In this document: piece after piece, positions 1,323 to 27,062 of the stretch | Numbering within the stretch: the first letter of the stretch is position 1 | How the letters are laid out: every line of letters starts with the position of its first letter | From: a virus | IMG/VR virus record: IMGVR_UViG_3300045120_000108 | Location: 1 to 32,610 of that record | Direction: 5' to 3' (one strand) | DNA length: 32,610 bases | Program-made: the position numbers and the translations under genes | Notes under the pieces: model-generated | The model's database searches: none | Told to the model about the DNA's origin: nothing | The model's input: the letters and a program-made list of their open reading frames with translations, nothing else

Positions 1323-2022
1323 TTCAGATTTCTCTGAATTTGCAAGAGGTATTCTTAGTGGAATTCCCGATGAAGATCGTCCTGTAGTCGCGAAGTACAT
1401 TAAGGAATGGGATGGTAATGTAACTAGGAAATTCCAAGAAATTCATCAACAGTATCAGCCTTACATGGAATTAGGTGATATTGAAGATATTCAGTATGCA
1501 AGATACTATGCATCTATGATGCAGAATGACCCTGCTGAATTGATCCGCACACTAACTAACGCAATGAAGGAAGCCGGAATGCCTGTAGATAATCTATTTG
1601 AACCTCCTCAAGAACAAGAACCTGAGCAGCAAGGATATCAAATCCCACCGCAGTATTTGAGTAAAGTAGATCAGCTTGAGAAAGCTCTCGGTACTGTTTA
1701 CTCGCAGCAACAAACGTTTCAACAGCAGCAAATTGAAGCGCAGCAAATGGCTCAACTTGACAAATTGATGTCTGATATGCATAGTCAGCACGGTGACTTC
1801 GATGACGACTGGTTTCTTCTGCAATTAGAAAAAGGGAAGACTCCAGATCAAGCAATAAACGCATACAAAGAAAGGTTTGGCAGTCCAGAACGTAAACCTG
1901 CCCCTAGAATTTTGACAGGGAATGGTGCAGTACGTCAGGACCAGGTTGATCCTTCTAAGTTAAGCGATAAAGATCGCAAGGCTTATGCCTTAGCAATCCT
2001 TCAAGCTAATTCTCAAACTTAG
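1219..2022 (+). CDS. Capsid scaffolding protein
   Basis: A 267-residue, very acidic and Gln-rich protein between portal and major capsid genes, the usual place of the scaffold that guides procapsid assembly and is then removed. Residues 1-35 are Pro-rich, 40-100 carry a helical segment (FARGILSGIPDEDRPVVAKY), 145-190 are a Gln-rich coiled-coil-like stretch, and the C-terminus is basic-to-mixed and helical (PSKLSDKDRKAYALAILQ), as expected for the capsid-binding end of a scaffold. The ATG at 1219 gives a 104-base overlap with the portal gene; no better ATG occurs until after residue 85, so most of the overlap is probably real. Scaffolds diverge fast, so the call depends mainly on position and composition. 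Confidence 0.7.
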   Translation: MSDFNNPVMPDLIIPPFQPTDSPSPNLQETEPPDSSDFSEFARGILSGIPDEDRPVVAKYIKEWDGNVTRKFQEIHQQYQPYMELGDIEDIQYARYYASMMQNDPAELIRTLTNAMKEAGMPVDNLFEPPQEQEPEQQGYQIPPQYLSKVDQLEKALGTVYSQQQTFQQQQIEAQQMAQLDKLMSDMHSQHGDFDDDWFLLQLEKGKTPDQAINAYKERFGSPERKPAPRILTGNGAVRQDQVDPSKLSDKDRKAYALAILQANSQT

Positions 2023-2036
2023 AAAGGTAAACTAAA

Positions 2037-3248
2037 ATGCCGGCAACCCTAACCACAGTTAACGGTATTCTCAAAGAGGTTTATGAGGGTACTGTTACCG
2101 ATCAATTGGATGAGAACGCAGTTGCTATTAAGAGAATTGAAAAGTCCTCAGAAGGAATTTTTGAGACTCCTGGTGGTAAGTATGTGGTATTCCCTCTCCA
2201 TACTCAGCGTAACTCTGGTATCAGTTATCGTGCAGAGAATGCTCAATTGGGTGCAGCAGGCCAGCAAGGCTATGCACAAGCTCAAGAGCGTTTAAAGTAC
2301 GGTTATGGTAGAATCAAGGTTACAGGTCAAGTAATCTCTTTGGCTAACAGTAACCCAAAGTCCTTCATTAACGCACTCGATGGTGAAATGACAGGACTTA
2401 AGAAGGATCTGACAAAGGATTGCAACCGAATTGCATGGGGAGATTCAACATCTTTCGCATCTTCGGGTAAGACCGCTGGAATTACAGTTCTTACTGGTGC
2501 AAGTGCAGCATCTACAACTGTAACTGCTCCTACAAGACTCCTGCAAATTGGTGAAGTAATTGATATTTGCCTTGCAGCTACAGGTGTTCCTATTGGTGGT
2601 GCAGCAGGTCGCACAATTGTTTCTATTACTTCTGCATCGGCTTTTGTTGTTGATGCAGTTGTTACAGCAGCAATTGGTGACTTTGTTACTCGTCAAGGTA
2701 ACACAGACAATGAGCCTTATGGCTTTGCTCAATTGGTAGATGACATTGGTACTCTTCACAACATTAACTCTGCTTCGGCAGGTAATGAATATTGGAGAAG
2801 TCTTGATGATGGTGCTACAACTGCTCTTACAGAGACAGTTGTTATCAAGATGCTTGATGACATTAAGCAAAAGAGTGGTGGAAAACCAAGTGTTATCTTT
2901 GCTGCTCTTGGTGTTCGTAGGACTTACTTTAACCTTCTTCTCTCACTTCGTCGGTATAATGAACCGAAGACGTGGGATGGTGGTTTAGTTGGTCTTTCCT
3001 TCATGTATGAAGGTGATCTTCCATTTATTGCTGATCCCGATCAACCTCCTAAAAGTCTCTATCTCGTTGATGAATCAGAAATTATGATTTATCGAGATAA
3101 GGATTGGTACTGGGAAGATATCGACGGTTCTGTTTTGAAGTACGTGCATGATTATGACGTCTTTGAAGCATTGATGAAGCAGTATTGGCAAATCGTTACT
3201 CACAAGCGTAGCGCACATGGTAGGTTCACAAACCTTACCGAGTCCTAA
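2037..3248 (+). CDS. Major capsid protein
   Basis: A 403-residue protein, the shell subunit of the phage head. It follows the scaffold gene by 14 bases and starts behind AAAGG at a good distance. The sequence has an N-terminal arm, an early beta segment with YVVFPLHTQRNSGISYRAE near residues 50-70, the glycine-rich YGRIKVTGQVISLANSN region around 90-105 typical of HK97-fold capsids of this type, an Ala/Thr/Val-rich inserted domain near 145-225, and a C-terminal half with PSVIFAALGVRRTYFNLL. Codon choice is smoother and more biased than in neighbouring genes, as expected for the most abundant virion protein. A GC-rich hairpin follows the stop. Confidence 0.85.
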   Translation: MPATLTTVNGILKEVYEGTVTDQLDENAVAIKRIEKSSEGIFETPGGKYVVFPLHTQRNSGISYRAENAQLGAAGQQGYAQAQERLKYGYGRIKVTGQVISLANSNPKSFINALDGEMTGLKKDLTKDCNRIAWGDSTSFASSGKTAGITVLTGASAASTTVTAPTRLLQIGEVIDICLAATGVPIGGAAGRTIVSITSASAFVVDAVVTAAIGDFVTRQGNTDNEPYGFAQLVDDIGTLHNINSASAGNEYWRSLDDGATTALTETVVIKMLDDIKQKSGGKPSVIFAALGVRRTYFNLLLSLRRYNEPKTWDGGLVGLSFMYEGDLPFIADPDQPPKSLYLVDESEIMIYRDKDWYWEDIDGSVLKYVHDYDVFEALMKQYWQIVTHKRSAHGRFTNLTES

Positions 3249-3255
3249 TTAGTCC

Positions 3256-3304
3256 GTGCCGGTGGCATTTGGGTGTTTTCGCGCCACCCTTATGTCACCG
3301 GCAC
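3256..3304 (+). terminator. GC-rich two-step hairpin after the capsid gene
   Basis: GTGCCGGTG (3256-3264) pairs perfectly with CACCGGCAC (3296-3304). A symmetric 6/6 internal loop follows, then an inner GGGTG (3271-3275) with CACCC (3285-3289). It starts 7 bases after the capsid stop and ends 18 bases before the next start. There is no T-run, so it is more likely a partial terminator, an mRNA end-stabiliser or a processing site than a full stop. Confidence 0.6.
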
Positions 3305-3322
3305 TTCATCTTTGGAGAAACA

Positions 3323-3808
3323 ATGGTTGTTTTAGATGATGGTAAGAACTACATAGATATGGGTAATTGTCTTGTTGAAGCTGACGCTTTACGTGTCGCT
3401 CAAGCTATCCATGACTATGATGAGAATCTAGAAGTAATTTGTCTTGATCCTGATCTTCCCGGTGTTAAAGTTACGTCTGCACCATTTATGGTTGTGCAAC
3501 GTATGCCGAACGGTACATATCAAAAAGTCTTAGAAGCATGGGAATTAGATGATCGTATGATTGAGCGCGTTTATGCCGCCGATCAACACCATACTAATAC
3601 TTTTCAAACTCTTGAACAGATGGAAAAAGCAGCCAGAGAAGGCGCGGAAAAGAGATATCGTGAATCTATGGACGAGGCTAACGAATTGGCCCTTGGTGTT
3701 ATCGCTTCTCGCTATTCGAGTTATTCTTTTAAGAACAAAGAAGGTGATAAAGTCAAGATCCATGAGGAAGGTCCTGTAACACTTAATGATGCAAAGAAGA
3801 GCTTCTAA
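3323..3808 (+). CDS. Unknown small virion-module protein
   Basis: A 161-residue acidic protein of unknown function. I place the start at the ATG at 3323, behind GGAG at 3314, because the frame extending further upstream would run through the hairpin and encode an unlikely leader. The N-terminal half is beta-rich (YIDMGNCLVEADALRVAQAI) and the C-terminal half is helical and charged (EQMEKAAREGAEKRYRES). Placement between major capsid and adaptor genes suggests a head decoration, completion or head-assembly role, but no motif confirms it. Its stop overlaps the next start in a TAATG arrangement, so it is translationally coupled to the adaptor. Confidence 0.7.
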   Translation: MVVLDDGKNYIDMGNCLVEADALRVAQAIHDYDENLEVICLDPDLPGVKVTSAPFMVVQRMPNGTYQKVLEAWELDDRMIERVYAADQHHTNTFQTLEQMEKAAREGAEKRYRESMDEANELALGVIASRYSSYSFKNKEGDKVKIHEEGPVTLNDAKKSF

Positions 3809-4431
3809 TGAACGTCACAGATATCACTCGTAAAGTTCTTAGACTATTTGGCGATAGCGCTGATGCTATTGTCATTCAGCAGACTGATATCTATGATTGG
3901 ATTAATGAGGCTCAATTAGTCATCTGTAGACAGACAGGTTGTCTTACAGGAACTCTTACATCTGCTTTAAGTAGTTATCCTAAAGCTCTACCGGCCGACT
4001 GGATTTCTACTAAACGTGTAGGATATGGTACTAATCCTACAGTAAATCTCAAGTTCATTGAGATTGATGATTTAGACAATCTCAATGTTGATCCAACACA
4101 AGTGGTTGATACACCTTTGTATTACTATCATTTTGCTGGTCAACTTCGTCTGTATCCAATGACTACAACTAGCGGCCAAAATATCATTCATGATTACACT
4201 AAGCTTCCAACAACTGTCGCTGGTTTGGGCACCGCCCTTGATGTGCCTGTATCTTTTCATGAAGATATTGTAAGGTTCTGTGTTATGCGAGCACATGAAC
4301 GAAATGAGAACTGGAACGCTTTCAGAGAATCTAAAGTAATCATGCAAGAGTCTAGTGGACTTAGGCAGGATGAAGCTAACATCTCTGATGACGAATTCTT
4401 CGTTGTAAGAGATGACCCTGGAGAATGGTAA
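3808..4431 (+). CDS. Head-tail adaptor (connector) protein
   Basis: A 207-residue protein in the slot where podoviruses encode the adaptor ring beneath the portal (comparable to T7 gp11 or P22 gp4). The N-terminus has the pattern common to such adaptors: helical, with a short segment containing DIYDWINEAQLVICRQTG at about residues 28-45. A beta-rich middle follows (YYYHFAGQLRLYPMTTTSGQ, 108-127), then a helical C-terminus with HEDIVRFCVMRAHERNENWN, a typical adaptor signature. It starts inside the TAATG overlap with the preceding gene and is followed 6 bases later by the nozzle gene. Assignment is by pattern and synteny. Confidence 0.65.
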   Translation: MNVTDITRKVLRLFGDSADAIVIQQTDIYDWINEAQLVICRQTGCLTGTLTSALSSYPKALPADWISTKRVGYGTNPTVNLKFIEIDDLDNLNVDPTQVVDTPLYYYHFAGQLRLYPMTTTSGQNIIHDYTKLPTTVAGLGTALDVPVSFHEDIVRFCVMRAHERNENWNAFRESKVIMQESSGLRQDEANISDDEFFVVRDDPGEW

Positions 4432-4437
4432 TAACTC

Positions 4438-6102
4438 ATGGCTGTATTTGGTGAGGAAACTGTCAAAATACCTATGCAGTTTGGACTAGACCCTGTAGGT
4501 ATTCCTGTCTCCGAAAAAAGCTTCAATATTCTGACTAATCTTATTAGGACAGAAGATAATAGTTTAGCGATTCGTGAAGATTTCCTGATGCTAATGGATG
4601 TAGCTAAGACTCCACGAGTTCTTCCAGTTACTACAGGAATCGTTCCTAAGAATACTTCTGAAAGAGATATGGAAGTATTTACAGCTACAGGATCAGCCTC
4701 GGTTAATACTCCCTCTTTATTGATGTGTTTCGATGATGGAACAACGAGAGATGTAAACTGGGTTAATTACAACAACGTTCCAACACCACAAATAACAACA
4801 CAGACAATTGCGACTGCTCGTGGAATTAAAGCGTTCTGCCAATATAAGGATAGATACTACGCATCAAATGTGACTGATACAATCTTTAGAGTATCTAACT
4901 TTACTACAGCAGGCGGAGCTTTAACTATCACTGATCTAGTGGCTATTGCTGGAGTTAACATTCTAATTAGTTTTAAGAATAGAATTTTCGGTATCTTCAA
5001 GAACCGAATTTACTATACAGACCTTCCTGCAATTGGTGGTTATCCTGAGACTTGGAGTTCAAGCCTCAACTTTGTAGATATGCCAACGTCTGACTTGGAC
5101 TTGACTATCTATAATGCTCTTGTCTATAAGGACAGGATGTATTTGTTCACTGATCGTGGAGTATATTACTTCTCCGCTAATGGTGCTCCAATCAACTGGT
5201 CGATTCAATTAGTATCTCCTGATTATCCAATCTACCACAGAGACTCTGTGTGTTTGAACAAGGGATTCATTTTCCTAACTAATCAGGTTAGAGTCTTTGC
5301 TTTTAATGGTGTTACATTCAAGGATGTGACAGGAAGTCTTACAGGTCTTTATAGATTATGGGGTTCTACAGGAGCTACTATTGTTAAGTTGTATCCGTAT
5401 GACAATGGTATCATTGCTGAATCTATCTCGTATGGTATAATTACAAACTATACGAGGGCAGGTTCTCGAATATTCTACTTTGACCTAGTTGGTTGGACAG
5501 AGTTGGATTTGAACAGTGGAACTTTTATCACAGCCGGTGGAACTAATTTTCAAGGTGAAATTCTTAGAGCAGGAATCAACTTACAGCCTTACAAGAGTAA
5601 GTTGGGTTCTAGCTATATTGCATATAAGAATAGTAATACATCTCATCGTGCAATATATCTAGATAAGAATAGATTTCTTGGAGATGCTTGGAATACATCT
5701 CATGTAGACAATGTTAGAACTTCTAAGAAATTTAGCTTCTCAAGCCCTAGTCCCTTCGTAGCAAATAAGAAGAACGTTCGCTTTAAGTACTGGAGTATCT
5801 TTGGATATTTCAATGATACTGCTCAGAAAATGAACATAGGTGCAGAAGATATGTATGGGCAGATATCAACACCTGTTCCAACTAGTAAATTTGCAGCCTA
5901 CAGTCAGTATATTAAAGGCGCAGTTCTAGATGACCAGGGTCTTTTTAATGCACCATTCAAACACAACGTTACATCTCTTTATGTATTTGGAGAAGCTTTA
6001 ACGGAGCCTTCAAGTGCATCAAGTCCCTCTATCATATTTGAAAAACTAGAGGCTGTAGTGAATAGTGATAACAAGGACAAAGATCAAATGAGCAACGCAT
6101 GA
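4438..6102 (+). CDS. Tail nozzle / tail tubular protein B-like beta-propeller
   Basis: A 554-residue protein with repeated beta-blade patterns such as IKAFCQYKDRYYASNV, DRMYLFTDRGVYYFS and KGFIFLTNQVRVFAFNGVTF, at spacings of roughly 50-90 residues through residues 120-330. Such propellers form the nozzle of podovirus tails (T7 gp12) and the P22 gp10 plug, closing the channel and carrying fibres. The gene order adaptor, nozzle, fibre supports the call. The last residues overlap the fibre gene by 4 bases (ATGA). The call as a nozzle rather than a general tail-hub protein is an inference. Confidence 0.65.
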   Translation: MAVFGEETVKIPMQFGLDPVGIPVSEKSFNILTNLIRTEDNSLAIREDFLMLMDVAKTPRVLPVTTGIVPKNTSERDMEVFTATGSASVNTPSLLMCFDDGTTRDVNWVNYNNVPTPQITTQTIATARGIKAFCQYKDRYYASNVTDTIFRVSNFTTAGGALTITDLVAIAGVNILISFKNRIFGIFKNRIYYTDLPAIGGYPETWSSSLNFVDMPTSDLDLTIYNALVYKDRMYLFTDRGVYYFSANGAPINWSIQLVSPDYPIYHRDSVCLNKGFIFLTNQVRVFAFNGVTFKDVTGSLTGLYRLWGSTGATIVKLYPYDNGIIAESISYGIITNYTRAGSRIFYFDLVGWTELDLNSGTFITAGGTNFQGEILRAGINLQPYKSKLGSSYIAYKNSNTSHRAIYLDKNRFLGDAWNTSHVDNVRTSKKFSFSSPSPFVANKKNVRFKYWSIFGYFNDTAQKMNIGAEDMYGQISTPVPTSKFAAYSQYIKGAVLDDQGLFNAPFKHNVTSLYVFGEALTEPSSASSPSIIFEKLEAVVNSDNKDKDQMSNA

Positions 6103-7541
6103 GCGACTTCTTTGGTTTAGATACTGAACTTAGTCTTGACTTGACTGGAATTCAGCCTGTCACAGAAGATTTTTCTACTGATGGTCAATTAGATCAATTT
6201 GCACGTATCGACCATCAGCATCCTTTAAGTGAGAGTTTAAGAGCTGCTATCTTTAGCTCTACGTTGTATATTAAGAAGTCTGGCGATACGATGACCGGGC
6301 AGTTAAATTTGACCACTTCTCATATTGCTTTGAATTTTGGATATGCTGTATACTTTAATTATCCTACTAGTACTGAATTAATTTATGCTATATCCGCTCC
6401 AGGGGGAATGCCTTGGCATACTGGAATAAGAATTCAAGCTATAGATGGTTGGTCATTTTATAATACTGCTGTCGCAGCTGATGTTATGGGATATCGTGGA
6501 GTAGCAGGTACAGGTTATCTTTGGGTGGGTAATAGAACTTTGCTAGGTCAAACTCCGAATGATGCTAGCTCAGTATATACTCTGAATATGAATGGCCATA
6601 TAGGTATGCTTGCTAGTAGCGCCATTATATGGACTAATTGGTACAACGCTGCTTGTATTTGGATGCAAGATGCAACTTGGGTAAGAGTTCAACCTAATTT
6701 CTATACTGGTGGGATTTGTGGCGGTAATAGTGGAATATCTGCCGGCGGCGGTGCTGGTGGAATGGGTGGCTATTCTGGTATATATTGCCCAGGTACAGCT
6801 GGATTTAGTACTACGTTATATGTTGCAGGTACTATAACAGGTGCTGGAGCAATTAATGGTTATCAAATAACAGGCAGTTCTCAAGGCGGAGCATGGCAAA
6901 ACTCAGCTATTAGATCAATTCCTGCAACAGCAACAGCCTCTCTTTGTTTACACAATGGTAGTTACGCACCTGTTATTGGCTCTACCCTTGGTACAGGAAA
7001 CAATATGTATTTCCGTGATGGAGCATTTAATGGTGCTTCTGCTGCATGTTTTGCTGCTTCTTGGAATTCTGATTCCTCAGTGCGGTTTAAGAAGAATATA
7101 AATGACTGGCCTCTTAAGGCTGTAGGAGCTTCTGTAGAGAATGTTATTGACTTGGTTGCAAAGCTACGTACAGTTACATTTCAACATAAGTTACCTCTGT
7201 TAGATACCGGTGGTAGTCGCCGATCATTAGCTTTAGTGCGTCTTAATGCCTTTAAAGATAGTAAAGGTCTTGAAAGATATAATTATGAAATGCCAGAACA
7301 TGATTGTGCAATCCATGAATGTGATGGTACGGATGAAAACCCATGTATTCCAAAAGTAATGGCTGATAGAGAACGTATAGGATTTATTGCAGAAGAAGTA
7401 TATGAAATCTTTCCTAATGCTGTTCCCTTAGATGCTTCAAATAAGCCTGAAGCTATTGACTTAGGTCAAATGCTAGCCATTTCTTTTGCAGCTATCCAAG
7501 AACTAACCAATCGAATTAAAGTTTTGGAAGGTGCAGCATAA
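6099..7541 (+). CDS. Tail fibre/spike with C-terminal S74 intramolecular chaperone
   Basis: A 480-residue receptor-binding fibre. Residues 1-60 carry a likely virion-attachment part with DGQLDQFARIDHQHPLS and then a SGDTMTGQLNLTT stretch common in phage fibres. Residues 60-315 are Gly/Ala/Tyr-rich beta structure, the probable variable host-binding shaft. From about residue 320 a peptidase S74 domain begins. SSVRFKKNI keeps the Ser-x4-Lys dyad used for self-cleavage, and GFIAEEVYEIFPNAV and a C-terminal coiled coil (AISFAAIQELTNRIKVLE) are typical. The domain helps trimer folding and is then cut off. It overlaps the gene before by 4 bases and touches the next by one. Confidence 0.85.
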   Translation: MSDFFGLDTELSLDLTGIQPVTEDFSTDGQLDQFARIDHQHPLSESLRAAIFSSTLYIKKSGDTMTGQLNLTTSHIALNFGYAVYFNYPTSTELIYAISAPGGMPWHTGIRIQAIDGWSFYNTAVAADVMGYRGVAGTGYLWVGNRTLLGQTPNDASSVYTLNMNGHIGMLASSAIIWTNWYNAACIWMQDATWVRVQPNFYTGGICGGNSGISAGGGAGGMGGYSGIYCPGTAGFSTTLYVAGTITGAGAINGYQITGSSQGGAWQNSAIRSIPATATASLCLHNGSYAPVIGSTLGTGNNMYFRDGAFNGASAACFAASWNSDSSVRFKKNINDWPLKAVGASVENVIDLVAKLRTVTFQHKLPLLDTGGSRRSLALVRLNAFKDSKGLERYNYEMPEHDCAIHECDGTDENPCIPKVMADRERIGFIAEEVYEIFPNAVPLDASNKPEAIDLGQMLAISFAAIQELTNRIKVLEGAA

Positions 7542-7762
7542 TGGCCAATATCAATTTAGTAATTCCAGACGCACAAGTACCACGAGTTGTTAATGCATTA
7601 TGTGCTGGATTAAAGACTCCTACAGGACAAGATGTAGTTCCAACTCCTGCTCTTGCCAAGGAAGTTGTAATTCAAATGATTAAGGCTCGTGTCCTAATGT
7701 ATGAAGAAGAATTAGCGCGAAGGGCAATTCAAGCCACAGATGTAACCGATATTGTAGCGTAA
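7541..7762 (+). CDS. Small unknown protein after the tail fibre
   Basis: A 73-residue protein whose ATG overlaps the fibre stop (TAATG). It begins MANINLVIPDAQVPRVVNAL and continues with a helical, charged second half containing VVIQMIKARVLMYEEEL. Small proteins of this pattern are commonly found behind fibre genes of actinophages, but I know of no proven function. Fibre-folding or tail-associated roles are possible. Confidence 0.7.
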   Translation: MANINLVIPDAQVPRVVNALCAGLKTPTGQDVVPTPALAKEVVIQMIKARVLMYEEELARRAIQATDVTDIVA

Positions 7763-7771
7763 AGGAAGACT

Positions 7772-7948
7772 ATGATTCAATTTGAAGTTAAGCCTGAGGA
7801 AATTCTTGAAGTTTTACAAGCTGAGTTTCCTAAAGAATTCACTATCGCTGTCCAACGAGTTCACATTCGTAAACTTGAAGAGCGGCTAAATAGTCTTGCA
7901 CCTGATCCATCTTTGAATGGTTCTCCTAAGGAGGCCATAAATGGCTAA
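7772..7948 (+). CDS. Small unknown protein, 58 residues
   Basis: ATG at 7772 behind AGGAAG (spacing about 4) opens a 58-codon frame ending TAA at 7946-7948. The product is acidic-to-neutral with a clear amphipathic helix: EVLQAEFPKEFTIAVQRVHI followed by RKLEERLNSL. It fills an otherwise empty 179-base gap and its 3' end overlaps the next start by 8 bases, both signs of a real gene. Function unknown. Confidence 0.7.
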   Translation: MIQFEVKPEEILEVLQAEFPKEFTIAVQRVHIRKLEERLNSLAPDPSLNGSPKEAING

Positions 7949-8171
7949 CATCTATGATACTCGTTCTACTGTAGGCAGTTACCTGCGTGGTAATAATGTC
8001 TACAATGGTACAGCTTCTAGTCCTAACCCAATGGGACAGAATCAGTATCCTAAGAATTTACAAGCAGCTGCTAGGCTTCGTAGAAGGCGCAGAGCAGCAC
8101 AGTCTTTAAGTCCTAAACCACCAACAAATTCTAATTCATTAGTGACCGAAGTAGGAGGGTTGTATCAGTAA
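7941..8171 (+). CDS. Small basic protein of unknown function
   Basis: A 76-residue protein with a near-consensus ribosome site (AAGGAGG) 6 bases before the ATG. The N-terminal half is Asn/Gly/Tyr-rich and polar; residues 40-53 are strongly basic (NLQAAARLRRRRRAAQS). The arginine block could bind DNA or RNA or the inside of the capsid. Sits in the late operon between fibre and internal-protein genes; its stop overlaps the next start by one base. Confidence 0.7.
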   Translation: MANIYDTRSTVGSYLRGNNVYNGTASSPNPMGQNQYPKNLQAAARLRRRRRAAQSLSPKPPTNSNSLVTEVGGLYQ

Positions 8172-8860
8172 TGGCTAGTTACCTATCACCAGGATTGACT
8201 ATTGGACCTGATCCTGTAGTTCCTAAATATGGAGCGCCGTTAGATCAACTGCCTACTCCATTAGCAACTGATGAGAGTGTTGTTGCAGCTTATCAGGCAT
8301 TAATGCAGTATATTGCTACAGGAGATGCCAATAAGGGTGTTTTCCAACGGAATTTAACAGATAATCTCGCACAAACGCAAAAGAATAGGCTTAAGGCAGT
8401 TCTACAATCTCATCAATCTTTAGCTGATCGTGGTCTTTTGAATAGTGGTATTGCATTAGGTCAAGAAGCTGATGTTGGTACACAATACGATGCTTTGGCC
8501 GCGGGTTATCAAAATCAATATACAGATCAAGTAGGGGCAATTGATAGAAATACTACAGGTCTGAGAACTGCCTACGATAATTCACAGGATGTGGCTTCTG
8601 GCAAATATACAGCCGCACAAGCTAAAGCAGCTGCTGATGCAATGGCTGCTCAAGATGCTGCTGCGGCACAACAACAGCAAATTGCAAATATGATTGCAGC
8701 TTTAACACCGCCACCGCTTACTCAACAAGCAGCTATTCCAAATTATACTCCACCTGCACAAGCTCCGTATATTCCACCAGCACCTAAGCCAAAGCCTGCT
8801 CCTAAGCCTTCTGGGACAACAGGTGCTCTAAAGCAAAGTATTTATGGCGGACCACAATAA
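8171..8860 (+). CDS. Ala/Gln-rich virion protein, probable internal/ejection protein
   Basis: A 229-residue protein with a helical Ala/Gln-rich body. Residues 60-100 include the pattern LADRGLLNSGIALGQEADVG, a motif I associate with phage structural proteins encoded next to ejection proteins. Residues 150-178 are Ala/Gln-rich coiled structure (AAADAMAAQDAAAAQQQQ), and the end is a Pro/Lys tail (PAPKPKPAPKPSGTTG). Late-operon position before the giant 1185-residue protein suggests one component of the ejected internal complex, as with the sets of two or three ejection proteins in T7-like and P22-like phages. No enzymatic motif seen. Confidence 0.6.
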   Translation: MASYLSPGLTIGPDPVVPKYGAPLDQLPTPLATDESVVAAYQALMQYIATGDANKGVFQRNLTDNLAQTQKNRLKAVLQSHQSLADRGLLNSGIALGQEADVGTQYDALAAGYQNQYTDQVGAIDRNTTGLRTAYDNSQDVASGKYTAAQAKAAADAMAAQDAAAAQQQQIANMIAALTPPPLTQQAAIPNYTPPAQAPYIPPAPKPKPAPKPSGTTGALKQSIYGGPQ

Positions 8861-9012
8861 TGGATACTAAAAAGGCAGCTAGCGATTATTTCGAGGCTCT
8901 GTATCTAAAGAAACATCCTGGTAAATTTGATCCACAACGTGCTGCCCTGCTTAAAAGATTAAAGAAGCGAAAGGCTAATACTCATGGTAAACAAGCCAAA
9001 AATTCACGATGA
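8860..9012 (+). CDS. Small basic protein, 50 residues
   Basis: ATG at 8860 overlaps the preceding stop (TAATG) and the frame ends TGA at 9010-9012, giving a 50-residue protein. It starts MDTKKAASDYFEALYLKKHP and is Lys/Arg-rich toward the end (LLKRLKKRKANTHGK). It covers what would otherwise be a 120-base gap, and overlaps the next gene by 29 bases. Function unknown; the charge suggests nucleic-acid contact. Confidence 0.6.
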   Translation: MDTKKAASDYFEALYLKKHPGKFDPQRAALLKRLKKRKANTHGKQAKNSR

Positions 9013-9349
9013 TTCTAGGATTCAAGAGTTAAAGAAAAATCCAGGCTCTAGAGCTTATTCCTTGACTCATGATAAAATGGGAAATACAGTAGATAATCTC
9101 AATTTTAGAGATGAAACTACTCGGAGATACATTCCTCATAAAGGTGGAATAGGAGTTTGGCAGAATTCAAATGGTACGCAGTTAGGTCAATCAATAAGTG
9201 AAGATTCTCCTATGATGCCTTCTAAATCTACAGGTGATATTCCATCAACTAATCTTGGTCATGCTATTCATGTTCATCTTCATGGATTAGGTGATGTTAT
9301 GCAGGGAGATTTTAAGAAGGCAGCTAAGTTAAAGAGAAAGAGGATGTAA
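8984..9349 (+). CDS. Unknown protein, 121 residues
   Basis: A polar protein with a His-rich motif near the end (HAIHVHLHGLGDVM, about residues 93-106) followed by a strongly basic tail (KKAAKLKRKRM). The middle contains NFRDETTRRYIPHKGGIGVW. The ATG at 8984 lies inside the end of the 50-residue gene; an ATG later in the frame (after LTHDK) would be an alternative. Its stop overlaps the next start by one base. The basic tail resembles those of its two small neighbours, hinting that the three work together on DNA inside the head. That is inference. Confidence 0.55.
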   Translation: MVNKPKIHDDSRIQELKKNPGSRAYSLTHDKMGNTVDNLNFRDETTRRYIPHKGGIGVWQNSNGTQLGQSISEDSPMMPSKSTGDIPSTNLGHAIHVHLHGLGDVMQGDFKKAAKLKRKRM

Positions 9350-10650
9350 TGCCTCCAGGTCAAAGAAGTCAGTATGGTGGTAATGTCTATTGGTTAAATC
9401 AACCACAGACAGTCAATGCACCATTACTTCCACGTTTACCTACACAAACTCCAGTTATACCTAAAGCAATAGTTGCTCCTTATACTGGAACAGGTGGTTC
9501 TAGAGCATATGCTAATACTCATGGAGCGCAAGTTGGTATGCCTTCAACAGCAGATCAACAGAAATGGGCAGATACACTTAAGTGGAATGCTGCTGTTGCT
9601 GCCAATTCAGCATTAAATAAATCTACTGGAGGTTCTAGTGGAGGTTCTAGTGGTGGAGGAGGTTCTAGTGGAGTTGTCGCTCCTGTAGAATCTGCGTTTA
9701 CCCCACAAGTAGCTGATTTATCTAGAAATCCATATCCCGGTTTCTATGATACTTTACTGGCATATGTGAAAGCTAATGCTGATAATCGTCCATCGGAATA
9801 TGCAGCTATAAGCGATCAATTTAAAGCTCGACAAGCAACAGCTAACCAACAAATGTACGATATGTATCAGGGAAGTCGTGCACAAACAGATGCTAGTGCA
9901 ACTGCTTTAGGGGCTGATCCTGCGATTGTTTCTGCTGCTAGAGATTTAGCAATGCGAAGAAGTCAAGAGAACTCAGATCAAAGCCTTGCAGATAATCAAG
10001 CCTGGTTGCTTAAGATGGGAGAACTCTCTAAGCAACAAGGTGAAGCTTATTTGAATCAATTTGCTGGACAAGGTGCTGCTGGTGCTGCTGCGTGGGTTGG
10101 ACAAGAACAACAAAGAGTTGCAGATGCTAATTTGGCCGCTGTTCAAGCTTTATTAGCTAAACAAGTAGCAGCTTCTAAAGGTGGTGGAGGCGGAAGAAAA
10201 AGCGGAGGCGGTGGTGGAAGTTCTAGTGGTGCAATAACTGATACAGCTACAGAAACTACTACAGATGCTGGAACTTATGATCCAGCTGTAGTTGCAGCTT
10301 TGCAAGGTAATCCAAAAGCTCTTGCTGAGTATATGAATCAGATTAATCTAAGCAGCCCCAATAAGGTAGTTGCGGCTACTCAAGGAAATGTTAATAGCTC
10401 TACGGCTGCAAGAGATAAAGCTATAAAAGCTATGATAACGACAATTGGTAATCCGTTTGCTCATCCAATGTCTCCTGCTCAGATTACCGCGAATCAAGTA
10501 TCTGGTCAAACGGCGGCCAGTCAGCTTCCTATTTATCAAGCAGTTCTCAATCAACTTGCAGGTGCTCCGCAAGTAAGTAAGAAGGTAGTTACAACTTCTA
10601 AGAATAAGACTCCTGCTCCTAAGCCTAAGGCTAATCCAAAGGTTCTCTAA
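9349..10650 (+). CDS. Gly/Ser-linker virion protein, probable internal protein
   Basis: A 433-residue protein built from helical Ala/Gln-rich blocks joined by flexible linkers. Residues 93-108 are a Gly/Ser repeat, and another glycine-rich linker (KGGGGGRKSGGGGG) lies near 277-290. Between them, residues 120-270 form a long helical region with YDMYQGSRAQTDASATALGA and LKMGELSKQQGEAYLNQFAG. The C-terminus is a Pro/Lys tail like that of the 229-residue protein upstream, suggesting a shared targeting or packaging role. Late-operon position just before the giant protein supports an internal/ejection protein. Nothing enzymatic recognised. Confidence 0.6.
   Translation: MPPGQRSQYGGNVYWLNQPQTVNAPLLPRLPTQTPVIPKAIVAPYTGTGGSRAYANTHGAQVGMPSTADQQKWADTLKWNAAVAANSALNKSTGGSSGGSSGGGGSSGVVAPVESAFTPQVADLSRNPYPGFYDTLLAYVKANADNRPSEYAAISDQFKARQATANQQMYDMYQGSRAQTDASATALGADPAIVSAARDLAMRRSQENSDQSLADNQAWLLKMGELSKQQGEAYLNQFAGQGAAGAAAWVGQEQQRVADANLAAVQALLAKQVAASKGGGGGRKSGGGGGSSSGAITDTATETTTDAGTYDPAVVAALQGNPKALAEYMNQINLSSPNKVVAATQGNVNSSTAARDKAIKAMITTIGNPFAHPMSPAQITANQVSGQTAASQLPIYQAVLNQLAGAPQVSKKVVTTSKNKTPAPKPKANPKVL
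9628..9669 (+). repeat. In-frame 12-base repeat coding Gly-Gly-Ser-Ser
   Basis: The unit GGAGGTTCTAGT occurs at 9628-9639, 9640-9651 and 9658-9669, with one GGTGGA spacer between the second and third copies. It encodes the first Gly/Ser linker of the surrounding protein. Identical codons in all copies point to recent slippage expansion. Confidence 0.9.
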
Positions 10651-14667: not shown

Positions 14668-14902
14668 TCTTAGGAGTTTCCATCGGAGACCAATCAAAGC
14701 TTCCTCTCTTGGCTTTATTTGGTCTAACCTTGAAATCCTCAACTACAATAAAATCAGCTGCTTCGATCAAGTTTTTATACTCGATAGCAGTTACATCAGA
14801 AGAAGTTTCGGCCAGGTCTATCCTGGCCTTTTTTGTTTCTGTGTCAATGATGATTACGGCTAATCCTGTAGTTTTACCTGGGTCTATGCCAAGGATATTC
14901 AT
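14465..14902 (-). CDS. RuvC-like Holliday junction resolvase
   Basis: A 145-residue RNase H-fold endonuclease that would cut four-way and branched DNA during replication, recombination or before packaging. The catalytic acids are visible: Asp7 in LGIDPGKTTG, Glu55 in FIVVEDF, and Asp124 with neighbouring His121 and His128 in HIQDAAAHAMYFAV. Length is near the usual 150-190 of phage RuvC-like enzymes. It is the last gene of the leftward replication operon, starting one base past the next gene's end. Its 3' 203 bases overlap whiB on the other strand, and codons for KKARIDLAET double as a + strand terminator. Confidence 0.85.
   Translation of the reverse strand: MNILGIDPGKTTGLAVIIIDTETKKARIDLAETSSDVTAIEYKNLIEAADFIVVEDFKVRPNKAKRGSFDWSPMETPKIIGSIQTLAALIGKKVVLQQPTIKPMGYGFAHMLYVKGKPGTHIQDAAAHAMYFAVKRGFALPSKLL
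14810..14834 (+). terminator. Intrinsic terminator inside the resolvase gene
   Basis: GGCCAGG (14810-14816), a five-base loop, CCTGGCC (14822-14828) and six T (14829-14834) form a textbook rho-independent terminator for + strand transcripts. It lies 142 bases after the whiB stop and wholly within the resolvase coding sequence on the other strand, so it would end whiB and late-operon mRNAs before they run against the early operon. Confidence 0.85.
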
Positions 14903-15201
14903 TATTCCCTTTGATCTTCAAGATGCTCACACATAAAGGCTCTCCATTTATTGAATTGTTTTTCTAATTCCTCCTGTAGCCATAAATCTCTTCCAGATAT
15001 GGATGGTAGTTTCTCTATAGGAAAACAGACACCTTCTTCATGGTCTCGCCAACCATCTTTTGTTAAGATTTTTGTCTTAAGCCAGACAGGTTTCTCATCT
15101 TCGGTCATTCCATAGAAATGTTCAAACAGATAGATCACTCTAAGATCATAGGCAGGCTCATTTCTTATAACAAGTTCTCGAACTTTATGATGTATCTTCA
15201 T
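14902..15201 (-). CDS. Unknown protein, 99 residues
   Basis: A charged helical protein beginning MKIHHKVRELVIRNEPAYDL with Trp-rich second half (LWLQEELEKQFNKWRAFMCE). It starts in a 4-base ATGA overlap with the gene upstream and its last base touches the resolvase start, so it is translated as part of the polymerase-resolvase group. No motif recognised. Confidence 0.7.
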   Translation of the reverse strand: MKIHHKVRELVIRNEPAYDLRVIYLFEHFYGMTEDEKPVWLKTKILTKDGWRDHEEGVCFPIEKLPSISGRDLWLQEELEKQFNKWRAFMCEHLEDQRE

Positions 15202-25138: not shown

Positions 25139-25191
25139 ATCCCAGGCTTGTTTCAAGCAAATCTCGATTCTGTTATGGCTGTACGCTTACA

Positions 25192-25274
25192 GGTGTTGTG
25201 GATAAGTCGGTGCCGCTCATAAGCCGATCTAGGCGATAGCGGCTCTGAGCAGCCACTACAGCCGGTCGGACACC
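25192..25274. ncRNA. GC-rich structured intergenic element
   Basis: The 146 bases between 25139 and 25284 carry no convincing gene and are richer in G+C than the surroundings. GGTGT (25192-25196) pairs with ACACC (25270-25274); inside, GCCGCT (25212-25217) pairs with AGCGGC (25238-25243), enclosing GCC/GGC (25223-25225/25232-25234), and GGCT/AGCC (25241-25244/25251-25254) offers an alternative hairpin. No canonical T-arm, so not a normal tRNA. A small RNA or a processed leader is possible. Confidence 0.45.
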
Positions 25275-25284
25275 ATATAGGATG

Positions 25285-25590
25285 TCACAAACCTTGTCTC
25301 TCCGCATGGATTTTAATATCAGGAGATGCTTTTGGTTTTTCTATTAGAGCTAATTCGCTTTCTATGAACCAATGTAAACTTTCAGTTCCACTAGCGGTAA
25401 AACGTACACCCCATTCTATATAGGGTTCTTCACGTGGAAAGTTGGGATTTCCCTCATCTATGTTTACAACGATAATTCTACCAACCTTGTTAACATAGCT
25501 GGGCCAGGTACCTTTAGATGGATATTGTTCCTTATCCCGTTCTATAATAACCCAATCACCTACTTTAAAAGCAAGACGAACTTCAGTCAT
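25285..25590 (-). CDS. SH3/KOW-like unknown protein, 101 residues
   Basis: Starts MTEVRLAFKVGDWVIIERDK, and GRIIVVNIDEGNPNF, EWGVRFTASGTESLHWF follow. The early V-GDWV-I and VGRIIVVN pattern is typical of small SH3-like barrel domains that bind nucleic acid or proteins. The helical C-terminus is Lys-rich. The start overlaps the previous gene by 8 bases. No exact family known to me. Confidence 0.65.
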   Translation of the reverse strand: MTEVRLAFKVGDWVIIERDKEQYPSKGTWPSYVNKVGRIIVVNIDEGNPNFPREEPYIEWGVRFTASGTESLHWFIESELALIEKPKASPDIKIHAERQGL

Positions 25591-25753
25591 TATCTCTACT
25601 TTCTATTGTGATATGCACAAAACCTCCTACTCGAAAGCAGGAGGTATCATTGAGAATAAACTTCATAGTAGTAGGTTTACCCCACTCATCTGGGGTTTCC
25701 GTATCTAATAGAGTGATAGAGTTAAGATCTATCTCTATGATCTTGTAATCCAT
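25583..25753 (-). CDS. Small unknown protein abutting the tRNA-like gene
   Basis: 56 residues from ATG 25753, two bases after the predicted 3' end of the tRNA-like gene. The product MDYKIIEIDLNSITLLDTE and then WGKPTTMKFILNDTSCFRVG is all beta and acidic. No Shine-Dalgarno sequence lies between the tRNA-like gene and the ATG. Codons further upstream in frame run through the tRNA-like gene and are not counted. Function unknown. Confidence 0.55.
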   Translation of the reverse strand: MDYKIIEIDLNSITLLDTETPDEWGKPTTMKFILNDTSCFRVGGFVHITIESRDND

Positions 25754-25755
25754 AG

Positions 25756-25833
25756 TAGGGCAGGAAGGATTTGAACCTTCATACACAGATATTGCTTTTG
25801 ATTCTGTGCTTTCTTCCAGAAAAAAACTGCCCA
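25756..25833 (-). tRNA. tRNA-like gene with enlarged anticodon loop
   Basis: The T-arm GAAGG-TTCAAAT-CCTTC and an acceptor GGGCAG/CTGCCC are clear, and a short U-rich D-arm with CTGGAA is possible. The anticodon arm is a 6-bp stem CACAGA/TCTGTG, but its loop is 13 bases (ATCAAAAGCAATA) instead of seven. If GCAATA were an insert, the loop would be a normal ATCAAAA with anticodon CAA. The variable loop is only three bases. It may be a decayed tRNA, a tRNA mimic, or part of the adjoining structured RNA. Confidence 0.6.
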
Positions 25834-25836
25834 TCC

Positions 25837-26221
25837 ATCTAAGTAAACATATTGGTGTAAGGTTCCGACCGACACCGCAATGTTATTGCTTACTTAGATT
25901 CTAGGTTGGTCTGACTCGATAAGTAAACATTCAGGGTAATAAGATTCGTCGGAATCTGTTGCCTCGGCTCCTTTTGCCATACCAGACAGTACAGATTAAT
26001 TGAACTTCGCTGCAAACATTACCGATTGGGAAGCTCACCTGTAACAACCTAGATTAAATCAGGAAGTCTGATCACCTATGTCCCATCAGCTAGGCTATGA
26101 ATCAGATATTAATTTCGTTTATTTTCTGATCTTCCTGAAACTTTATATATAGTGCGGGTTGTTTCAGTCCCAAAGCGTAGCTTTTGGAAAAGAACTTAGG
26201 ACAACCCCGCGAAACCTATAT
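25837..26221. ncRNA. 385-base multi-helix noncoding region (candidate ornate phage RNA)
   Basis: No gene fits this stretch, but it is full of nested inverted repeats. Domain 1: ATCTAAGTAA/TTACTTAGAT (25837-25846/25890-25899) enclosing ATTG/CAAT, GTGT/ACAC, GGT/ACC. Domain 2: closing helix TCTAGGTTG/CAACCTAGA (25900-25908/26045-26053), with GTCTG/CAGAC and a hairpin GGTAA..AGATTC-GTCG-GAATCT..TTGCC (25935-25963). Domain 3: TCAGGAAG/CTTCCTGA (26059-26066/26131-26138) over TCTGAT/ATCAGA and CCTA/TAGG. Domain 4: ATATAG/CTATAT, GCGGG-TTGT/ACAACCCCGC, CCAAAGC/GCTTTTGG (26147-26221). The tRNA-like gene adjoins it, a setting shared with GOLLD and ROOL RNAs of phages. Strand not settled. Confidence 0.65.
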
Positions 26222-26977
26222 TTAATCTTCGTCTGGATCAGTTCCATCATCATCGCCATTATCTTCTGCTTCCTCAGAATCATCTGCGGCAGGAGCATCG
26301 GCGGACTTTGTTCCGATCAACATACGGCCATCTGGCAATTCAAATTCAATTGTATCGCCAGGCTTTGTGGTATCAATCTTTGCGGCTCGCATTGCAGCGG
26401 TAAGATCGGCAACCCGATCATAAACCGGAACTGCTGCAATAACCTCCTTAAGATCGGCATAATCCGTTCCTTCAATTTCCCAACTGAAGAAAGACAATTG
26501 ACGAGGACCACGCTTTCCTTTAGGAGCACCGCCACGACGACGAGGGGCAGGCATTTCATCCAAATCATCATCGCCAAACAATTCAGCCATATCCCGAATT
26601 GACTTAATCATTGCGTAAACCTTCTTACGCTGTTCCATCAAAGGCTCAACTTCCTCTTCTGAAATAAGAGGCTCAACCTTTGGTGCCTGCTCAACTTCAG
26701 CATCAATTGATTTCTTAGCTTCCTTACCGAACTCTTTATCAAGTCCACGAACCAAGCCGTAATAGAAACCAATTCGCGCACGATCAGGAGCTTCTGCAAG
26801 ATGAGCAACCAATTGCTTGAGAACAGTTGACCAATTCTCTTCTGTCTCAGTAATCAGACTCTTGAGAACAGCGGTACGAATTGTAGTTGCACCACCATCT
26901 CGTGAATCCAATTTCTCATCAATGTCATCCAATGTAATTTGAAGTTCATCGAACTTCTCCTTAAGATCCATTGCCAT
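26222..26977 (-). CDS. Acidic-tailed protein with basic linker, unknown, probably abundant
   Basis: A 251-residue protein with its own leader and downstream structure. Residues 1-120 are helical and charged (LKEKFDELQITLDDIDEKLD). Residues 144-158 are a basic linker (PAPRRRGGAPKGKRGPRQ). A compact alpha/beta domain follows (SFFSWEIEGTDYADLKEVIA, TIEFELPDGRMLIGTK), and the last 25 residues are almost all Asp/Glu/Ala. Base composition and codon use are more G+C-rich and more biased than in neighbours, a sign of high expression or separate origin. A basic patch plus an acidic tail suggests nucleic-acid or histone-like binding, but I recognise no family. AAAGGA precedes the ATG. Confidence 0.75.
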   Translation of the reverse strand: MAMDLKEKFDELQITLDDIDEKLDSRDGGATTIRTAVLKSLITETEENWSTVLKQLVAHLAEAPDRARIGFYYGLVRGLDKEFGKEAKKSIDAEVEQAPKVEPLISEEEVEPLMEQRKKVYAMIKSIRDMAELFGDDDLDEMPAPRRRGGAPKGKRGPRQLSFFSWEIEGTDYADLKEVIAAVPVYDRVADLTAAMRAAKIDTTKPGDTIEFELPDGRMLIGTKSADAPAADDSEEAEDNGDDDGTDPDED

Positions 26978-27062
26978 TATATTTGTATCCTTTTCTGTTG
27001 GTACGGGGCAACATCTAGTTTCCCCCCTTGTGAGTACAAGTGTCTCATGGATTGATATTCGG

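Follow-up and report, generated by a model that had tools for sequence, protein, structure and literature searches.

Large structured phage RNAs lying near tRNAs have resisted explanation, and the locus described here raises the question once more: what is the role of a gene-free stretch that ends in a tRNA-like gene, itself set almost against the start of the next reading frame? The window, that is, the whole stretch of DNA that we analysed (32,610 nucleotides, IMG/VR record IMGVR_UViG_3300045120_000108), carries 468 nt of non-coding DNA between the end of gene P0001 at 26222 and the start of gene P0002 at 25753, or 388 nt without the tRNA-like gene (Table 1). A sequence-only reading had described a 385-base stretch here as free of genes, and this was borne out: there is no conserved ORF in 26221-25834, where the minus-strand frames opened by ATG, GTG or TTG and lying mostly inside code for 41-46 aa, none being longer. 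The stretch does not qualify as a protein-coding gene; the relatives cannot be aligned there. No terminator-like site was found in 25500-27000. P0001, which precedes the RNA on its 5' side in the relatives as well, belongs to no family that we could find: a match to SesA was weak, below the cut-off, and a fold search with its AlphaFold model (pLDDT 80, pTM 0.41) gave no match. The MDYK start of P0002 is kept in three phages (the window and its relatives L002 and L003), with codon-position differences of 17/14/25 and 20/15/31, third positions varying most; the frame evolves as coding sequence and looks like a real gene.

Table 1. Features of the locus in the window, in minus-strand order.
Feature	Coordinates	Strand	Description
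Upstream gene P0001	26222..26977	-	251 aa; RG-rich basic patch and an acidic tail; of no known family
Stem-loop 1	26146..26219	-	right after the P0001 stop; GCGGGGTTGT 26210-26201 / ACAACCCGC 26162-26154; outer pairing AUAUAG/CUAUAU; GGGTTGT 26207-26201 pairs with 26162-26156
Stem-loop 2	26059..26138	-	closed by TCAGGAAG 26138-26131 / CTTCCTGA 26066-26059 (8 bp)
Three-way junction	25900..26053	-	P1 TCTAGGTTG 26053-26045 / CAACCTAGA 25908-25900 (9 bp); P2 TACAG 26043-26039 / CTGTA 25994-25990; P3 GTCTG 25987-25983 / CAGAC 25913-25909; counterpart in L008 7194-7270
Stem-loop 4	25837..25899	-	AUCUAAGUAA.../...UUACUUAGAU; helix ATCTAAGTAA 25899-25890 / TTACTTAGAT 25846-25837 (10 bp)
tRNA-like gene	25756..25833	-	Rfam tRNA 29.3 bits, gathering cut-off 29.0
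Downstream gene P0002	25583..25753	-	56 aa, MDYK...; ATG 2 nt past the tRNA-like; no Shine-Dalgarno

The helices named in the sequence-only reading are all present where it had placed them. Perfect helices were counted in the 388 nt and in 500 dinucleotide-shuffled versions of it, and the real sequence has more: those of at least 7 bp numbered 9 (2.36 in shuffles, P 0.002), those of at least 8 bp 3 (0.58, P 0.022) and those of at least 9 bp 2 (0.15, P 0.010). The global fold of the stretch gave z scores of -2.3 on the minus strand and -3.6 on the plus strand (60 shuffles); when the tRNA-like was included, the scores were -2.9 and -4.3. Taken by itself, the window RNA has structure in excess of chance, yet this excess is modest.

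Comparison reaches further. Relatives were collected via P0001 and the helicase gene upstream: L002 and L003 (82% identity in P0001), L008, which is phage MW202795, a 42.6-kb podovirus from Manatee Spring, the pair L012/L025 and some twenty more IMG/VR contigs, most of them with the common gene order helicase, P0005, P0001. An origin in freshwater actinophages, as implied earlier, is not established: the distant relatives of the helicase in named phages come mostly from phages of Gordonia and Arthrobacter and in some cases from those of Bacillus, and a search of bacterial genomes for the host returned remote helicases only, mostly from Bacillota, which is uninformative. In about 15-20 of the relatives P0001 is followed by some 100-700 nt of non-coding DNA, rich in long helices when the sequences are read by eye, and most of these phages have a tRNA or tRNA-like within or after that stretch; only a terminator-like hairpin or a simpler layout is seen in others, for example L039, L040, L043, L178, L186, L191 and L195-L198. 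Over 30 phages, some of which have a simple hairpin only, the mean fold z of the 240 nt that directly follow P0001 is -4.0, against -1.1 for random stretches of the same contigs (Mann-Whitney p 5e-11).

The structure thus found at one site is built from changing sequences. Even the closest relatives, L002 and L003, carry other RNAs there, of which only short pieces align with the window: a different long hairpin occupies the position of stem-loop 1, and the 5' strand of stem-loop 2, AGGAAGATCAGA, is found in L002 too, with a short loop. Alignment of the full RNAs with MAFFT mostly fails, because modules have been swapped. The whole window RNA has no close homologue, and its own helices are mostly without a covariation comparison; a search for RNA homologues in annotated phages and for exact motifs in IMG/VR returned the same contigs or chance matches only. 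Matches in L102, L103 and L105, which look like coding sequence, were rejected as chance.

Compensatory changes, to which the sequence-only reading had looked for confirmation, occur among the relatives in three independent comparisons (L008/L012, L041/L044 and a pseudoknot described below), and for the window itself in its junction. In the window the junction helices P1 (GGTTG/CAACC), P2 and P3 are joined by linkers of 1, 2 and 0 nt, and at L008 7194-7270 the same P2, P3 and linkers accompany a compensated P1, CGTAG/CTACG. A descriptor of this junction matched twice in 468 kb (window and L008) and never in a shuffle; drawn from those two sites, it shows specificity, not independent discovery. 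What looks by eye like a partial second copy, at L008 6837-6912, has both helices compensated (AGTAG/CTACT, GGCTG/CAGCC). The pair L041/L044 has one stem-loop with 4 compensated pairs and another with 2. A stem-loop at L041 ~15025-15075 and L044 ~14870-14925 has conserved GUUGAGCGC...UGCGAUCC and a compensated outer helix; its GUUGAGCG recurs in L034 at ~15288.

An added find is a recurrent 28-nt H-type pseudoknot with strong covariation, present soon after the P0001 stop in L027, L034/L035, L036, L050 and L173 and absent from the window. In its consensus, N4C-CU-GRGNA-[AU]-GN4-[UA]AAAC-UNCYC, both stems covary and the loops are fixed; 96% of cells are paired, with 11 two-sided changes against 3.7 in shuffles, and the covariation score of 0.67 compares with 0.21 for shuffled alignments and at most 0.17 for slid controls. 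It has no Rfam match in the loci searched. The sites after P0001 are L027 4797, L034 ~15242, L036 14532, L050 13719 and L173 ~1648; further ones are L034 4852, L036 6052, L050 3350 and 4297, and L124 5850. Its places are intergenic, after a stop and often ahead of a Shine-Dalgarno sequence. Compact pseudoknots number 9 in the post-P0001 regions of the relatives, against 1.25 in mononucleotide shuffles. As far as comparison of sequences can tell, a structured non-coding phage RNA, kept at a fixed place and renewed module by module, is established for this family, and the earlier proposal of such an RNA joined to a tRNA-like gene is upheld, with compensatory changes among the relatives; the anatomy of the tRNA-like and its spacing to the next ATG, to which we now turn, stand on the same comparative footing.

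In the tRNA-like gene at 25833-25756, which ARAGORN does not call, the acceptor stem and the D arm are intact, as is the T arm (GAAGG-UUCAAAU-CCUUC). The predicted fold gives its anticodon arm a 7-bp stem and a 13-nt loop, with no 7-nt decoding loop, and such a molecule should not decode. Non-standard anticodon arms combined with sound acceptor and T arms recur in L002, L003, L029, L033, L041 and L188 (loop sizes read by eye), and other relatives have an ordinary tRNA at the same site, often tRNA-Leu(UAA). The tRNA-likes lack a terminal CCA and finish with ACTATG. In 12 of the 22 tRNAs called by ARAGORN in the phage family, an ATG lies 0-2 nt past the tRNA without a clear Shine-Dalgarno sequence. 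Other phages show this in 4 of 32 cases, three of which share a contig, and bacterial contigs in 2 of 31. The count, which leaves out the window tRNA-like, takes ORFs of at least 30 codons, and the letters before the ATG are those of the tRNA acceptor. The window tRNA-like obeys the same 0-2 nt spacing, and the depositors of MW202795 annotated two such starts, each 2 nt past a tRNA, tRNA-Arg and tRNA-Lys respectively. Dense packing or mis-set start codons could produce this spacing instead. The window has a second case of the arrangement at 24257-24172 (minus), where a tRNA-Leu(UAA) is followed at 0 nt by an ATG that opens a frame of 130 codons or more. Outside the phage family, the contig L151 has, at 1538-10076, three tRNAs with an ATG at 0-3 nt, and is perhaps a further phage with the same arrangement.

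On which strand is the RNA made? The earlier reading had hesitated, setting a G-U pair that favoured plus against flanking genes that favoured minus. The case from the genes holds; that from G-U pairs does not, since the evidence is divided, GGTAA/TTGCC pointing to plus and a second helix, GAGCTTC/GAAGTTC (26036-26030 / 26008-26002), to minus. Fold energy chooses no strand in the window, both strands beating their shuffles. The RNA strand is minus: this is the strand of the tRNA-like and of the two flanking genes, and in most relatives folding is stronger on the operon strand than on the opposite one.

We tentatively put forward, as the best explanation, that the stretch forms a structured RNA within the minus-strand operon and that the tRNA-like serves as a processing mark and not as a decoder. 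One transcript would span P0001, the structured RNA, the tRNA-like and P0002. Host RNase P, cleaving just ahead of the tRNA-like (25833/25834), would give the upstream RNA a 3' end that is both defined and structured, and tRNA 3' processing would cut near 25756, so that the P0002 mRNA would keep some 2-3 nt of leader and be translated near-leaderless. The RNA freed upstream may belong to the P0001 message as its protected 3' UTR, or it may be a free molecule, and its exchangeable modules – long hairpins and the three-way junction here, pseudoknots in relatives – may protect or mark the transcript. Cutting of such degenerate tRNA-likes is putative. The tRNA-likes retain the features that RNase P and the enzymes of tRNA 3' ends recognise, while those that the ribosome reads are gone, which makes the two roles separable and the idea of tRNA punctuation testable. 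Punctuation of this kind is familiar from mitochondria, from bacterial tRNA-mRNA transcripts and, in animals, from MALAT1-mascRNA, where the ends of adjacent RNAs are set by a tRNA or tRNA-like; the present locus differs in that its processing is putative and its downstream ORF would be almost leaderless. A wider claim is doubtful: that a whole phage family uses non-decoding tRNA-likes as processing marks, releasing fast-evolving modular RNAs upstream and nearly leaderless genes downstream, in a mitochondria-like tRNA-punctuated operon with an undescribed class of RNA. In the open-licence literature we found no description of this arrangement of RNA, tRNA-like and ATG.

The strongest rival, unlikely in our opinion, sees a free ornate RNA acting in trans, similar in role to GOLLD or ROOL, that accumulates during infection and works alone or in the form of an RNA assembly; the part of the tRNA-like would be confined to trimming. 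GOLLD and ROOL are indeed large structured phage RNAs of unknown function near tRNAs, GOLLD often exceeding 800 nt (PMC12286853), and the window RNA resembles them in its phage origin, its contact with a tRNA gene and its ornate look. The multi-branched, pseudoknot-bearing folds of the relatives would suit this role, and so would the pair L008/L012, where some 150 nt before tRNA-Leu are nearly identical (nearly 100%) while the flanking proteins have drifted to 71-72% identity, a contrast that counts for our own reading too; the near identity of the RNAs could reflect recent exchange. Among the few changes between the two are 8 compensated pairs, 7 of them in the anticodon and variable arms of tRNA-Leu and one in the structured RNA, and these pairs likewise count for our own reading. 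Against this role, no class of sequence or structure is common to the whole family, with lengths of about 100-700 nt, and no Rfam family matches. The kinship with GOLLD or ROOL suggested earlier is unsupported: Rfam covariance models found neither in the window (E up to 5) nor in the relatives searched, the window RNA has 388 nt (up to about 700 nt in relatives), and this phage family, unlike GOLLD or ROOL, lacks a single conserved RNA core. There was no tmRNA match in the stretch with Rfam or ARAGORN, and ribozyme, intron and riboswitch models of Rfam gave chance-level matches only; every Rfam family except tRNA was rejected for lack of a match in the window and the relatives searched. An old precedent for small stable RNAs beside a phage tRNA is given by T4 rnaC and rnaD, known as the stable RNAs of species 1 and 2, the likeness being one of description; their length, however, is 119-139 nt and their place is 3' of the tRNAs. 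The window RNA is a candidate new class of structured phage RNA in a familiar kind of place, and not a member of GOLLD or ROOL.

Less probable still is counter-defence: the tRNA-like with its altered loop would serve as a decoy or a cleavage-proof tRNA to counter anticodon nucleases of the host, and an arms race would account for the fast turnover. The non-standard anticodon loops of the window and of the relatives named above would fit, and phage tRNAs with changes in the anticodon stem-loop do escape the PARIS nuclease AriB (PMC11455837). Those tRNAs decode, however, while the 13-nt loop should not; nor was any nuclease or defence link seen, and the 388-nt RNA would be left unexplained.

That the locus holds functionless remains, a decayed tRNA and spacer hairpins, is quite improbable. 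The tRNA score at its cut-off, the minus-strand z of the window and the lack of conservation in the closest relatives speak for it, but structure at the same site in 30 relatives, the compensatory changes and the intact acceptor and T arms of many tRNA-likes speak against it. We give little credit, too, to the idea that P0002 is regulated by a switch, either an attenuator or a riboswitch. Its ground is a direct repeat, AUGUUUACUUA, whose copies (the upstream one at 25930-25920) flank their own inverted copy, so that two mutually exclusive helices, 25930-25920/25896-25890 and 25899-25890/25846-25837, could toggle the junction, the alternative pairing of the stem-loop 4 5' arm breaking P1; yet no such repeat is seen by eye in L008, L002 or L003, the terminator is missing, and the tRNA-like stands between switch and gene. 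An element acting as DNA (replication origin, packaging or recombination site) is very improbable, for although the window hairpins fold equally well on both strands and a DnaA-box-like TTATCCACA lies ~0.6 kb downstream, the tRNA-like is on one strand, the operon strand folds better in most relatives, and the pseudoknot stems of relatives covary around fixed loops.

Other structured stretches deserve mention. Beyond P0001, L188 4046-4640 (L189 1241-1835) contains a tRNA-like whose anticodon arm has a 7-bp stem and an 11-nt loop, and then about 450 nt of very ornate non-coding sequence for which Rfam, searched up to E 0.1, gave no match. Another block that is non-coding and structured, the second in the window, is found there at 25150-25300 (minus), at 6320-6490 in L002 and at 6470-6650 in L003. 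The window and L002 blocks have in common CCGACTTATCCACAACACCTGTAAGCGTACAG, which includes the DnaA-box-like sequence, and all three blocks have in common TAACAGAATCGAG; in L003 a DnaA-box-like sequence lies on the opposite strand.
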